Assembly: GCA_900299205.1 (NCBI GenBank)
Contig: OMIW01000182.1
Span: forward strand, 1 to 18,745
Source of the DNA: Pseudomonadota bacterium
GTDB lineage: Bacteria; Bdellovibrionota_C; UBA2361; OMIW01
DNA length: 18,745 bases
Direction of reading: 5' to 3'
Part shown: piece by piece, positions 9,023 through 14,725 of the stretch
Layout of the letters: each line of letters begins with the position of its first letter
Position numbering within the stretch: the stretch's first letter is position 1
Position numbers and translations under genes: made by a program
The notes under the pieces: generated by a model
Databases searched by the model: none
Told to the model about the DNA's origin: nothing
What the model saw: only the letters and a program-made list of their open reading frames with translations

Positions 9023-10240
9023 TTAATTTTCCTTCTTTAGCGCATCAAGGGCAGCCTTCACAAATCCATGACCTGCACCGGTGAGTGAGGCCTGATTTAT
9101 TTCTAGCACCACCGCATCGTACTTCCAAATATCATCCCACGGGACTCGGGTAAGGGGAAGCGCTCGAAGTCGATCCTTGGAGGTTCGACGGATCGACTTC
9201 GCATAGAAGAAGAGACTTGCCTCCTCCACTGCTTGCGAGCGCTCAAGGTGATTCTGAATTGCGAACAAGAAGCTGGTTCCGACCAAAAACATTTTTGGCT
9301 TCAGACCCATCGACTTTTGATTCAATTCGGCTTTATGAGTAACCGTGATCCCCTCCCGCATATATCGGGCGGGGAAGAGAAGATTTGCGATATCGAGGAG
9401 GTCGGTGTCCTCGCTAGGGGGTGGATGTGACCAGGCGATGTTATCGCACGAAATGGACGGCCAGCGTTTTTGATCCTCGGTTTGTCGACCACCAATTGTG
9501 GTTAACAGCTGTTGCGTCGCAATGCACGAGGCATAATCGTTCCAATGAGAGCCGGTTAACGGAAAGACGCCTCCGTGAAATTCGCCCCGATGGCTGGCGG
9601 CATAGTCGAAAAAATCAATTATCGGGATGCCCGCCTTTTTGAAATGGGGGAGGGCTCGTTCGTAGCTGTTCTCCCGCGACAATCGGGTAGGGTCGGTTAA
9701 TGATGATGGAACAATCTCAGGTGACAGTGCGATGGCATTAGGACTTATCATCAGCACCAGAGGAACTCCTCGTTCTCTTAATCGGTTTTCGAGCTTTCGC
9801 AGTCGCTGGGCTGCTCGAACTGCGTCCTCTTTCTTCACCGGCCGCGAACGATTAAAGGATCTGAGATACATTGGTTGAAAGAGTGCTCCGTTTTGACCAA
9901 CCAAAATCGAGGGACTTGGGCTCGTGCCGATCTGGTTACACATCGAGAAGGTAAGTTGATTCGCCGTCCTGACTAAGAGGGGCCAAACCCTGATACCTCT
10001 CGACATATACTGCTCGACCTCTTTTTGAAATCGCCCCGACATTACCCGACTCCACGATGGGAGCCCCGGTCGAGGTGGTGTGGCTACTCCTTGAATGGGT
10101 GGCACAGAGATAGGGCGAGGAATCCACGGAATAATCGGTATAAGAAGAATACTCTGGAAAAAGATGAAGAAAATCAGATGCCGACGACTTGAGGAAGAAG
10201 CCGTATCGGGGCACAGTTGGGGAGAGAGAGGTGATCTCAT
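9023..10240 (-). CDS. AlgJ/AlgX-like SGNH-fold polysaccharide O-acetylation protein
   Basis: 405 residues from the ATG at 10240. A single membrane anchor or uncleaved signal lies at about 21-40 (HLIFFIFFQSILLIPIIPWI), so the rest should be periplasmic. The body matches the ALGX/ALGJ SGNH hydrolase-like domain: VLVGQNG-type segment near 113-118 (ILVGQNGALF), VPLVLMISPNAIAL near 159-172, TGSHWNDY at 229-236 and the nucleophile block LVGTSFLF with S323. H232 and S323 are 91 residues apart, close to the 93 between H176 and S269 of Pseudomonas AlgX. The expected Asp two residues before the His is Gly230 here. These proteins move acetyl groups onto exported polysaccharide, working with the MBOAT protein AlgI, which is encoded 73 bases upstream on the same strand. 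The polysaccharide is unknown; alginate itself is not implied. Confidence 0.8.
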   Translation of the reverse strand: MRSPLSPQLCPDTASSSSRRHLIFFIFFQSILLIPIIPWIPRPISVPPIQGVATPPRPGLPSWSRVMSGRFQKEVEQYMSRGIRVWPLLVRTANQLTFSMCNQIGTSPSPSILVGQNGALFQPMYLRSFNRSRPVKKEDAVRAAQRLRKLENRLRERGVPLVLMISPNAIALSPEIVPSSLTDPTRLSRENSYERALPHFKKAGIPIIDFFDYAASHRGEFHGGVFPLTGSHWNDYASCIATQQLLTTIGGRQTEDQKRWPSISCDNIAWSHPPPSEDTDLLDIANLLFPARYMREGITVTHKAELNQKSMGLKPKMFLVGTSFLFAIQNHLERSQAVEEASLFFYAKSIRRTSKDRLRALPLTRVPWDDIWKYDAVVLEINQASLTGAGHGFVKAALDALKKEN

Positions 10241-10313
10241 AATCTCGTCAAAAACAAGGCAAAACGAGGCATTAATAACATATTTACACCGAACAACTGA
10301 GCTCCGAGGAGGT

Positions 10314-11753
10314 CTAAAACTGGAAGTATATAAAGGGGCTATAGGATGATACCGCCATCGATAAAGCAGAGAGGATTAAAAGAAGTACGACGCCGATAAA
10401 ACGGAGGGTATCGACATATCTCTCAGAGATAGAGGAGCGAATTGAGCCCCTGACTTCGTCGAACAAGGGAAATGCGGGAAGAAAGCAGGATCCCGCAGCT
10501 ATCAGAAGGATCCAATTGGCAAACGGGGTCAATACCAGACCATACGGCACCTGTTGAGGCGCAGACCACCAGCTGAACGGATTGATCATCCTTCCAAGAT
10601 AGAGAAGAGAAGCGGGTAGATTGTCAGCTCGAAAAAGAACCCAGCTAAAGAGGATAAGAACAAATGTTATGACTGTCGACGCCAACCGACCTATGCGTTC
10701 TGCGAATGAAAGAAACCACAGACGATCGAGGACAAGAAATACCCCGTGGTAAACGCCCCACACAACATAGTGCCAACTTGCGCCGTGCCAGAACCCGGAG
10801 ACGAGAAAAACGATCCACAAATTGATGTACTGACGGATAACCCCGACCCTGTTGCCTCCGAGCGGAATATACAGATAGTCGCGCATCCAGCGAGAGAGAG
10901 ATATATGCCATCTACGCCAAAATTCGGTCATGGAAGCAGAAATGTAGGGACGATCGAAATTCTCGAGGAAGGTAAAACCAAAGATACGCGCAAGCCCAAT
11001 TGCCATGTCCGAGTATCCAGAGAAATCAAAATAGATCTGGAACGCGTAAACAATCGCTCCCATCCATGCCCAGGAGAACGATAACTGGCTCGGATTCATT
11101 CCAAATATCACATCAGCGGCCGAACCCAGCGTATCCGCGATAATAACTTTTTTTCCGAGACCGATTGAAAAACGGCAAAATCCCTCAAAACATTCCCGGG
11201 ACGATTGGCTCCGACGTGCGAGAAATCGTTCGATATCGTGATATCTTATGATCGGGCCTGCAATAAGTTGGGGGAAGAAGAGAATGTAGAGGCCATAATC
11301 GATCAAATTCTTCGTCGGAGCGACAGTTCGCCGGTAAATATCAACGATATAGCTGATCTTGTGGAAGGTGAAAAAAGAGATCCCGATGGGTAGCACAATA
11401 GCCCCGAAGGAGAGAGGGCGGATATCAAAGCCGATGAGAACACGGTTCACTTCATGAAGAAGAAAGTGAGTATACTTGTAGTAAACCAGAGCGCCGACGT
11501 TGATGAACAAAGAAAGCAGGAGCAGGCCCCGACGTACCCGCAATTTTTGCGTACGGTCAAGGTAGTGGGCGATGATATAGTCAATGAGACAAGAAGCAAT
11601 AAGGAGCCCTAATACTCGGGGAGCGCCCCATCCATAAAAAACTATGCTCATAAGGAGCAGAAAGCCATTTCTAGCCCCTCCAGGGAGGGAGAAATAGGCT
11701 ATCACCGTGAAGGGGAGGAACAGGTACAGGAACAGGGGGGCGCTGAATACCAT
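10314..11753 (-). CDS. AlgI-like MBOAT-family membrane O-acyltransferase
   Basis: 479 residues from the ATG at 11753, giving the typical MVFSAPLFLYLFLPF start; a TTG nine bases earlier would add three residues. There are ten or more hydrophobic helices. MBOAT hallmarks are present: PIGISFFTFHKISYIVD-type segment near residue 125, FFPQLIAGPI near 160, YFDFSGYSDMAIGLA near 244, EFWRRWHISLSRWMRDYLYI near 277-296 (H283), and SGFWHGASW with the presumed catalytic H323. AlgI-type proteins pass acetyl groups from a cytoplasmic donor across the inner membrane for O-acetylation of exopolysaccharide, cellulose or peptidoglycan. The AlgJ/AlgX-like partner is 73 bases downstream, so the two form a two-gene acetylation unit. 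No polymerase, synthase or c-di-GMP-binding gene is adjacent, and the glycan could be the one modified by the pyruvyl transferase in this window (inference). Confidence 0.93.
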   Translation of the reverse strand: MVFSAPLFLYLFLPFTVIAYFSLPGGARNGFLLLMSIVFYGWGAPRVLGLLIASCLIDYIIAHYLDRTQKLRVRRGLLLLSLFINVGALVYYKYTHFLLHEVNRVLIGFDIRPLSFGAIVLPIGISFFTFHKISYIVDIYRRTVAPTKNLIDYGLYILFFPQLIAGPIIRYHDIERFLARRSQSSRECFEGFCRFSIGLGKKVIIADTLGSAADVIFGMNPSQLSFSWAWMGAIVYAFQIYFDFSGYSDMAIGLARIFGFTFLENFDRPYISASMTEFWRRWHISLSRWMRDYLYIPLGGNRVGVIRQYINLWIVFLVSGFWHGASWHYVVWGVYHGVFLVLDRLWFLSFAERIGRLASTVITFVLILFSWVLFRADNLPASLLYLGRMINPFSWWSAPQQVPYGLVLTPFANWILLIAAGSCFLPAFPLFDEVRGSIRSSISERYVDTLRFIGVVLLLILSALSMAVSSYSPFIYFQF

Positions 11754-12124
11754 TGAGGACAACGTGGGAACACAAAAGAGTGCTCAAACCTAACACTATG
11801 TCGTACTCCACTCAACTACCCGTCAGCCAGGGTATAACGGCCAATCGAAGACGACGTGATATCCATTTTTCCGGGCCGAGAGATCACACCAGCATCCACT
11901 AAAACAAAAACTCATAGGCGCAATCGCAAGTGAGAGACACCTGAGGAGCAACCGTCTTCCCCGAACGGCGTTTTCAGACGGTGATATTCCGTAAGCCAAT
12001 CCTCAAGCCATCTGATGCTCGCGTGCACCTCTGCCCAAGGCACCTTTTTTCTTAAGTTATACTCGCACAGTGCCGATCTCCCACGAAGCAATCGGTATGA
12101 AACCACTCGTGAGGGACGGATTTT
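11754..12124. other. Divergent intergenic region between the AlgI-like and cache/CheW genes
   Basis: 371 bases with no convincing gene. It must hold promoters in both directions. For the + strand gene the best -10-like element is TATACT at 12058-12063 in an AT-rich patch (CCTTTTTTCTTAAG just before it), but I see no good -35 at the right distance. For the - strand unit only weak candidates exist (TTGAGT with a poor -10). A - strand open frame from 12178 to 11912 runs through it, but it starts inside the CheW-protein gene antisense and has no recognisable family. Confidence 0.5.
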
Positions 12125-14725
12125 ATGGGTGTTTACAAGGATATCAGCATACCTGATGAGCTCGACTGCGTCATTCACCAGATGCGCGAGGTCGATGGAT
12201 ATCGTGAAGAGCTCTCATCACTCGGACAACAGTGGGACCTGTTGACGATTCTCGGCCAAATGAGTGGTGACGGAATCGACATGTCGGCCACGCGCGAGGC
12301 TTTTAAACAGCTTACGGGCGATCTCCTGAGCAATCTTGGTCTTGAAACCCTGCGCAAAGTATTGCGAAAACTGACTGCAAAAGCGCAAGTCGCCGTTGAT
12401 ATCGTCGTTAGAAATCTATTTGAACGAACTGCCGATATCGGATTTCTGGCCACCGACCACAATATCAGGGACTATTTGCGGGATGGAGGGGAGCAGGCAG
12501 TCCTTGAGGCTCGGTTCAGAGAGTACATCGCCAAGTATTCTGTCTACGATAACGTCATACTTATTGGAATCGACGGCTCGATCCGGGCTCAGATTGACCA
12601 TACGAACGGGCTCACCTCGACCACCGACCCGATAGTCGGCGATTGTCTGCGAACGAGTAACGCCTATGTAGAATGTTATCGAGAGACTGAGCTCGCTCCA
12701 CAGTTTCACCGCAAGCTTTTGTATGCCTTTCGGGTCACTGAAACGGACGATCCTCGGTCTAAAGCCCTCGGGGTCCTCGTGCTCTGTTTTCGGTTCGAAA
12801 ACGAAATGGAGGGCGTCTTCAAAAATTTGATGGGCGCGAATGACTGGGAATGTATCACCCTGCTCGACGGAGAAGGGGAGGTTATCGCCAGTGGCGATAA
12901 ATACCAGATTCCGGTCGGAGCGAAGGTCGAATTTGTCCTCGACCAGCCGTTCAAGGTCGTTAAATTTGCCGGACGAGAGTACCTCTCGAAAAGCTGCGCA
13001 ACGAAGGGCTATCAGGGCTACATGGGGCCTGGATGGTACGGTCACGTCATGGTGGCACTTGACCAAGCGTTCGATGTTCGAGCCGACCCCTCTCATGCAA
13101 TCGCCGCTCCGCCGGTGATGCGGGCCGTACTTGCCTCACAGCGGCTGTTCTCGCCCGATATCCGCCGAATCCCTCGCGATGCTGAACGTATCCAGCGGGA
13201 CCTCGATCGGTCGGTATGGAACGGAAACGTCAGACAGGAATCGATAGCTCACGAAGAAAATGATCAGGGCCAGGCGAATGCGAACAAGGTGCTCTTGTGG
13301 GAAATTAGCAAGACGGGAGCCCGAACAAAGAGCGTATTCGAGCGTTCGATCACAAATTTGCGGACAACTGTTGTTTCGTCGATCCTGCACGATGTCCACT
13401 TCATGGCATCGCTTGCGATCGATATCATGGACCGCAACCTCTATGAGCGGGCGAACGATTGTCGATGGTGGGCTCTCACCCAGTCTTTTCGATCGATAAT
13501 GAGTAAGCACACGATTACTGCGGGTGATCAGAAATCAATGACGGAAACCCTCAGCTACATCAACAGCCTGTATACCGTGTACTCTAACATTTTCGTCTTC
13601 GACAGAAGCGGGACAGTTCTTGCAGTTTCAAATCCGGAAAACCAAGGTCTCGTTGGGCGTCCCGTCGAAGGACGGTGGGTCCAAGATACACTTTCTAACC
13701 ACCAATCGCAGTGGTACACCGCTTCATCGTTCGAGGAGAGCAACCTCTATAACGAGCAACGGACCTACATTTACGCGGCTCCAATCACTGCAGCGCACGA
13801 TGTTCGGCGAAATGTGGGTGGTATCGGGGTCGTGTTCGACAGCACCCCCCAGTTTCATGCGATGCTCGATGATTGCTTGCCACGAACCGACGATGGGGTT
13901 GTGATTGCCGATGCATTCGCCCTGTTTATGGATCGACTTGGTCACGTTATAGCATCCACCCGGCCTGACATCGCCATCGGTGAAAAATTTGCCATAGACT
14001 CCGCGACCCTTAATTTACCCGCCGGTCAGGGCAGTTCATCGATATTCCCCTTCAAGGGCCACTACTATGCAATGGGGGTTCACGCAAGCAGTGGGTATCG
14101 AGAATACAAGGGTCCGAACGACCCCTACACTAATGACGTTCGAGCAGTGGTATTTATTCCGTTGAGTGAGGCGGTGGAGATGGTTGAGCGAGCAGGCTCC
14201 AAAGACGCCCTGGCCTCGAGCGTCAAGACAAGTAATCGAGTCGCGGGAGCAAAACAGGTTGAAATCGCCACCTTCTTCATCGGAGAGCACTGGATCGGGG
14301 TCAATGCCCAGTGGGTGCTCGAAGCGGTCAGCATGGATTTCATCAGCAGGGTTCCTCACGCACCTTCAGGCTTGAAGGGGGTGATGAAGCTGCGGGATAC
14401 TGTACTTCCCGTGATGAGCGTTCACGAGAAAGTTGGTCGGAACATCAAATTCGAGGATGAAGAGACACAGATCGTTGTCATTAACACATCACTCGGTCCA
14501 TGGGGGATGATAGTCGACCGTTTGGGACCAATTCCCACGGTGGATCCGAACCAGATCGATACCGACAGCGCGGTCGTCAAGAGGGCCGGAAGCTACGTGT
14601 CGGGTCTTGTCAAACCAGCTCCTGGCTCTGCGTGGCCACGGTTACTAATTGTAGTCGACCCTCAAGAGCTGCGGAAAACACTTCTCTCGTTAGAGGGAGA
14701 GGAATTCTTGGCAAATCTCGAGTGA
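12125..14725 (+). CDS. Soluble double cache-like sensor protein with C-terminal CheW domain
   Basis: 866 residues. The ATG at 12125 follows GAGGG at 12111-12115. Order: a helical N-terminus (1-85); a first sensor unit (about 86-345) with AVDIVVRNLFERTADIGFLA at 90-109, Y-S-V-Y-D-N-V-I-L-I-G at 138-148 and W-E-C-I-T-L-L-D-G-E-G-E-V-I-A-S near 241; a second, related unit (about 425-690) with LAIDIMDRNLYERANDCRW at 430-448, Y-T-V-Y-S-N-I-F-V-F-D-R-S-G near 483 and F-M-D-R-L-G-H-V-I-A-S near 601; and a CheW domain (about 708-855) with FFIGEHWIGVNAQWVLE, RVPHAPSGLKGVMKLRDTVL and WGMIVDRLG. The two units are an internal duplication of dCache character. No membrane helix or signal peptide is visible, nor any HAMP, MCP signalling hairpin or kinase domain. 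CheW domains dock to CheA and receptor tips, so the protein may feed a cytosolic signal into a chemosensory array; ligand and partner are unknown. No che gene is nearby. Confidence 0.85.
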   Translation: MGVYKDISIPDELDCVIHQMREVDGYREELSSLGQQWDLLTILGQMSGDGIDMSATREAFKQLTGDLLSNLGLETLRKVLRKLTAKAQVAVDIVVRNLFERTADIGFLATDHNIRDYLRDGGEQAVLEARFREYIAKYSVYDNVILIGIDGSIRAQIDHTNGLTSTTDPIVGDCLRTSNAYVECYRETELAPQFHRKLLYAFRVTETDDPRSKALGVLVLCFRFENEMEGVFKNLMGANDWECITLLDGEGEVIASGDKYQIPVGAKVEFVLDQPFKVVKFAGREYLSKSCATKGYQGYMGPGWYGHVMVALDQAFDVRADPSHAIAAPPVMRAVLASQRLFSPDIRRIPRDAERIQRDLDRSVWNGNVRQESIAHEENDQGQANANKVLLWEISKTGARTKSVFERSITNLRTTVVSSILHDVHFMASLAIDIMDRNLYERANDCRWWALTQSFRSIMSKHTITAGDQKSMTETLSYINSLYTVYSNIFVFDRSGTVLAVSNPENQGLVGRPVEGRWVQDTLSNHQSQWYTASSFEESNLYNEQRTYIYAAPITAAHDVRRNVGGIGVVFDSTPQFHAMLDDCLPRTDDGVVIADAFALFMDRLGHVIASTRPDIAIGEKFAIDSATLNLPAGQGSSSIFPFKGHYYAMGVHASSGYREYKGPNDPYTNDVRAVVFIPLSEAVEMVERAGSKDALASSVKTSNRVAGAKQVEIATFFIGEHWIGVNAQWVLEAVSMDFISRVPHAPSGLKGVMKLRDTVLPVMSVHEKVGRNIKFEDEETQIVVINTSLGPWGMIVDRLGPIPTVDPNQIDTDSAVVKRAGSYVSGLVKPAPGSAWPRLLIVVDPQELRKTLLSLEGEEFLANLE

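Follow-up and report, generated by a model that had tools for sequence, protein, structure and literature searches.

A soluble protein with two predicted dCache units and a CheW domain, and its family in mostly nitrogen-fixing bacteria

CheW was long regarded as a passive linker. The window studied here (the whole stretch of 18,745 nucleotides, contig OMIW01000182.1) carries a gene (12125..14725, + strand, as for all features below unless stated; ATG start) that encodes an 866-aa soluble protein, in which two dCache units precede a CheW domain. Cache domains have been described as principally extracellular, 78% of them confidently so (PMC4822843). What might a pair of such sensors do in the cytosol, joined to a chemotaxis adaptor, and what kind of signal might they read?

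Domain architecture and predicted fold

The protein was modelled with AlphaFold2 from an alignment of 50 sequences (the window protein and 49 relatives), with a mean pLDDT of 84.7 and a pTM of 0.80. From the N-terminus, the alignment and the model delimit a helical cap (residues 1-75; 12125..12349), which is conserved in the family, comprises a helix at residues 21-47 and the start of a long helix at 54-109, and stands where a membrane anchor would be. It is followed by dCache unit 1 (residues 76-317; 12350..13075), predicted to adopt a fold like that of the PctA and CtaA ligand-binding domains. With VIA-align, the region from about residue 75 to 317 was aligned with a histidine-kinase sensor domain (Z 18.4, rmsd 2.7, 225 aligned residues) and with PctA, PctB and CtaA (Z about 17, rmsd 3.3-3.5). 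A helical linker (residues 318-410; 13076..13354), which in the model holds helices at 329-337 and 344-377 and the start of one at 381-449, leads to dCache unit 2 (residues 411-682; 13355..14170), delimited with Pfam, VIA-align and hhalign and resembling the sensor domain of DctB (Z 19-20, rmsd 2.5-2.8, 212-226 aligned residues). According to the model and the structural alignments, a long N-terminal helix leads into two Cache subdomains in each unit; both of the cache-like units claimed for this gene in the initial annotation were thus placed on predicted dCache folds.

In the Pfam search, dCache_1 (PF02743) matched only unit 2 of the window protein (residues 421-574, E 8e-8), with a score below threshold (32.5 bits against a gathering score of 45); among relatives, E-values went down to 2e-17. 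In hhalign, the two units were recognized as homologues of each other (probability 99%, E 4e-19, 233 columns), and a tandem duplication is the suggested origin. The structural matches and this homology ruled out a chance likeness to Cache. Inspection of both units by eye did not reveal R-x-W-Y, the distal-pocket signature of amino-acid-sensing dCache domains (dCache_1AA).

Each unit carries the helix motif R-N-L-F/Y-E-R-x-x-D, which had been reported at residues 96 and 437 and was found there, as RNLFERTAD at residues 96-104 (12410..12436) and as RNLYERAND at residues 437-445 (13433..13459), from the sequence and the alignment. Across the 50 aligned members, the R, N, L, E, R and D of the motif were invariant in both units, and so was Cys446, which directly follows RNLYERAND (50 out of 50). 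A similar helix, DRNLFERYGD, is present in the window genome's own transmembrane dCache MCP, so the motif does not single this protein out.

Beyond unit 2, a poorly conserved linker modelled with low confidence (residues 683-708; 14171..14248; pLDDT < 50 at residues 688-705; mean entropy 3.4 bits) connects to the CheW domain (residues 709-857; 14249..14695). This domain had been described as complete, and indeed it was matched by Pfam (PF01584, residues 715-849, E 7.4e-20) above the gathering score (71.4 versus 23.5 bits) and exhibited the full fold in the model, where residues 709-857 were aligned with CheW structures (VIA-align, Z 17-18, rmsd 2.2-2.6 over 139-142 residues).

The protein was also described as membrane-free, and the transmembrane check agreed: the maximum Kyte-Doolittle mean over 19 residues reached 1.52 for the window protein and did not exceed 2.07 in any of 71 family members, in none of which a signal peptide or membrane helix was seen. 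Since no hydrophobic segment was both long and strong enough, a membrane or secreted protein was ruled out, and the usual, though not obligatory, extracytoplasmic placement of dCache_1 between two membrane helices is absent here. No HAMP or MCP domain was matched by Pfam, as had been anticipated. Moreover, neither the window protein nor the other 49 members gave a match to the MCP signalling domain (PF00015), to a receiver domain, so the protein is not a CheV, or to CheR, so the architecture is not that of CheWS. Overall, a soluble protein with predicted dCache folds and a complete CheW fold was borne out by model, alignment and hydropathy, and the anatomy given in the initial annotation proved right wherever it was checked.

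Family members and conservation

In a scan of contigs from public genomes, at least 587 loci were found to encode a relative. The best 80 of these (at least 587) loci were fetched, with best segments 40-48% identical to the window protein; in 75 of the 80, as in the window, the gene was a single long open reading frame, belonging to the same cluster. Identity to the window protein was 39-49% for the other members of the 50-sequence alignment, and each of the 50 scanned members matched both dCache_1 and CheW (CheW at E 0.001 or better).

Conservation was stronger in the sensors than in the CheW domain (mean column entropy of 1.43 and 1.53 versus 2.28 bits), as would be expected if one kind of ligand had been kept while the arrays differed. 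In the 50-sequence alignment, GYREYK (residues 657-662), the RNL[FY]ER..D helices and many neighbouring residues were invariant or nearly so. In the CheW domain, the positions aligned with V36, E38, V45 and G57 of E. coli CheW were conserved (V731, E733, I740 and G752 in the window protein), and that of R62 (position 757) was occupied by R in 11 and by K in 10 of the 50 members. The canonical NLRG motif was altered in most relatives; the window protein retains Arg757. We take V36, E38, V45, G57 and R62/NLRG of E. coli CheW to be kinase- or receptor-facing positions.

Homologues without CheW, about 640-680 aa long and ending after unit 2, were found in Campylobacterota, which indicates that the double sensor forms an independent module. 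Some of these CheW-less double-dCache genes (loci L106-L112) adjoin genes that, by eye, are AmtB-like or heme-oxygenase-like. The earlier reading missed the size of the family, its strong association with nitrogenase genes and these CheW-less versions of the sensor. Neither a dCache-CheW family nor CheW in nif clusters was found in the open-access literature, and the tandem-dCache CheW family, its breadth and its nitrogenase link are apparently undescribed in what can be searched.

Of 45 genomes of the organism's class, only that of the window (2.45 Mb, about 90% complete) holds a copy; relatives yielded no more than partial matches, either to the CheW domain or to the sensor region. In the protein tree, the window protein belongs to a small branch, on which it forms a pair with one from Verrucomicrobia (support 99/94), with proteins of Glaciecola and Cellvibrionaceae nearby, all from nifD-less genomes and on long branches. 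This tree position and the isolation of the copy within its class indicate that the gene probably either came in by horizontal transfer or was retained while relatives lost it; spread by plasmid was rejected, as there was no match in the plasmid collection. No nifD was found in this genome at its roughly 90% completeness, on which ground a nif-related function in the window organism was rejected; the organism does not seem to be a nitrogen fixer, and the protein probably has no role in nitrogen fixation there. Near the sensor gene, AlgX-like and MBOAT genes lie side by side (9023-11762, - strand) and probably serve polysaccharide O-acetylation.

Chemosensory and nitrogenase genes in carrier genomes

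The gene had been said to stand alone, far from che genes. This holds within the window, but the genome has a che cluster on contig C74, encoding CheY, a CheX-like ORF, CheW, a transmembrane dCache MCP and CheA (CheX and CheY recognized by eye), as well as a second MCP on C157 and a CheV-like protein on C194. The CheA gene (L103:16424-19278, on C74 of the window genome, G000) lies in two frames, a stretch of 552 aa and then an open frame running from 18124 up to the end of the contig; a frameshift, due to sequencing error or mutation, is the apparent reason.

Among 300 genomes of the order around Dechloromonas (which we infer to be Burkholderiales in GTDB), 36 carry the family. CheA (PF02895) was detected in 35 of these 36 carriers versus 180 of the 264 non-carriers (68%; Fisher p 6e-5), a pattern that would be expected of an array component, although it falls short of proof. 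A conserved che neighbourhood was not found at the fetched loci, where the neighbours were mostly unrelated and nif-related genes were the recurrent exception. At one locus (L018), an MCP gene lies 3 bp downstream of the cache-CheW gene and is followed by nifE; this MCP (L018:10664-12292) has no Pfam sensor-domain match, and a similar MCP-type ORF comes after the gene in L025 and L046. ORFs of one cluster that, by eye, look like GGDEF/EAL proteins directly adjoin members in L066, L083, L067, L071, L044 and L076, which hints at a link with c-di-GMP.

Several of the fetched relatives have nif genes nearby. Overall, the family occurs mostly in nitrogen-fixing bacteria: 41 of the 50 other carrier genomes matched the nifD model (38 above the cut-off, the remaining matches being partial nifD or nifE-type) and 9 had no match. 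In the Dechloromonas order, nifD was present in 20 of the 36 carriers versus 26 of the 264 non-carriers (p 1e-9; this p-value and those that follow overstate the evidence, because genomes cluster by descent and the statistics ignore kinship), and the association was also seen among CheA-positive genomes only (20 out of 35 versus 25 out of 180, p 2e-7). A second survey covered 248 genomes of the order around Sulfuricurvum, presumably Campylobacterales, and gave nifD in 34 of the 40 carriers versus 25 of the 208 non-carriers (p 7e-20).

In 9 of 41 and 11 of 34 nif-positive carriers, no more than 20 kb separates the gene from a nifD/E-type gene, with about 1 such case expected from a simple length estimate (p 3e-6 and 5e-8). 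In profile searches, its neighbours included NifE-, NifX-, NifS- and NifA-type genes, those of NifX and NifA scoring just under the cut-offs; in L048, for example, a NifA-type gene lies 63 bp upstream of the family member, and AmtB and ADP-ribosylglycohydrolase genes adjoin members at other loci. That two phyla agree, and that the gene is physically linked to different nif genes, speaks for a real association. In Sulfurimonas-type nif clusters, a conserved protein of 187-188 aa is encoded between nifS and the cache-CheW gene (L055:7322-7885, L063:3012-3572 and L078:1916-2476); the L055 copy had no match in Pfam or NCBIfam.

Candidate roles and related systems

Domains, solubility, conservation, co-occurrence with CheA and nifD, and nif synteny were observed, and with these in hand we lean, by a little more than an even chance, towards a cytosolic CheW-fused metabolite sensor that feeds a CheA array. 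The two tandem dCache units would bind one or more intracellular small molecules, and a change in ligand would pass through the long helices and the flexible linker to the CheW domain. This domain would sit in CheA-receptor rings in the place of ordinary CheW and shift CheA activity; the array would then be informed of the internal metabolic state with no need for a membrane receptor. Ligand binding, array insertion, the direction of the effect and the nature of the signal are what we infer. Across the family, the sensed state may often be relevant to nitrogen fixation, such as fixed-nitrogen, carbon or redox status; in the window organism, with its chemosensory system and no nifD found, the signal would have to be more general. 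By analogy, the DctB-like unit 2 and the PctA-like unit 1 may hint at dicarboxylates and amino acids as candidate ligands. The erosion of NLRG, the CheW-less homologues, the R-x-W-Y signature that was not seen and the nifD-less window genome were counted against the sensor-adaptor reading.

A possibility compatible with a sensor-adaptor, and one to be taken seriously although it stands below even chances, is that the nif link reflects only a shared lifestyle (motile, microoxic or anaerobic) and linked inheritance, with no functional tie and a general metabolite being sensed. The window genome and nine of the 50 other carriers have no nifD match, the nif-negative carriers cluster on the protein tree, so that genomes are not independent events, and only the minority of nif-positive carriers given above have the gene close to a nifD/E-type gene. 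Against this, the association is repeated in two orders of different phyla and within CheA-positive genomes, and linkage to several nif genes exceeds the simple chance estimate. At the other extreme, the family might be a dedicated cytosolic nitrogen-status chemosensor. Its dCache units would then respond to C/N signals inside the cell, the DctB-like one perhaps to a dicarboxylate such as 2-oxoglutarate and the PctA-like one perhaps to an amino acid such as glutamine, and would adjust swimming or array output to the need for N2 fixation, with the window protein as a non-diazotroph branch for general C/N status; we hold this to be quite unlikely.

A regulator outside chemotaxis, in which the CheW domain would relay the dCache signal not to CheA but to another target, such as nif or c-di-GMP control, would fit with the CheW-less double sensors of Campylobacterota, the eroded NLRG motif and the several members that adjoin nifA-, nifE-, nifS-type, ADP-ribosylglycohydrolase or amtB genes rather than che genes. 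We nevertheless consider it unlikely, given the near-universal presence of CheA in carriers, the CheW domain retained in 50 out of 50 members, the conserved positions that align with kinase-binding residues of E. coli CheW, and the operon-like MCP neighbour in L018. CheW-only ring positions tune arrays, and the alteration of the NLRG region in most members might likewise suggest a competitor or structural spacer, which would occupy adaptor positions in the ring and tune coupling while the dCache units served as ligand-free dimerising bulk. However, these units are the best conserved part of the protein, with many invariant polar and aromatic residues that a mere spacer would not need, and we find this explanation very improbable.

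If the sensor-adaptor reading holds, a family of at least hundreds of members would show the commonest bacterial extracellular sensor fold re-used in the cytosol and wired straight to the chemotaxis adaptor. The co-distribution and linkage with nitrogenase genes, moreover, raise the testable question of whether diazotrophs are steered by an internal signal of nitrogen fixation.

Among known systems, PctA, CtaA, Tlp3 and DctB share the dCache fold of both units (VIA-align, Z about 17-20), but in them the domain lies outside the cytoplasm, in membrane proteins whose output is an MCP or a kinase, whereas the window protein has no membrane helix and a CheW output. Like CheV, it is a multi-domain CheW-type adaptor; unlike CheV, which has a phosphorylatable receiver domain, it has two dCache units and no receiver, and the window genome encodes a separate CheV-like protein. 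CheWS of Treponema denticola, in which CheW is fused to a CheR-like SAM sensor within the array, was presented by its authors as the first reported characterised CheW-fused chemotaxis sensor (PMC10653840). That study also lists CheW-CZB and CheW-PAS fusions and puts the number of unstudied CheW architectures at 30; dCache is not mentioned in its main text, and dCache-CheW may be among the architectures of its Fig. S10. As in the CZB and PAS fusions, a sensor domain and CheW are united here in one protein, with a different sensor fold. The direct precedent, though only for the proposed way of working, is CheWS, a soluble sensor joined to CheW that feeds the level of an internal metabolite to the CheA ring, as we propose by analogy for the window protein, which differs in having two N-terminal dCache units instead of a C-terminal CheR-like SAM-binding domain. 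CheW-fused sensors are already a known kind, of which the soluble tandem-dCache version appears to be new.
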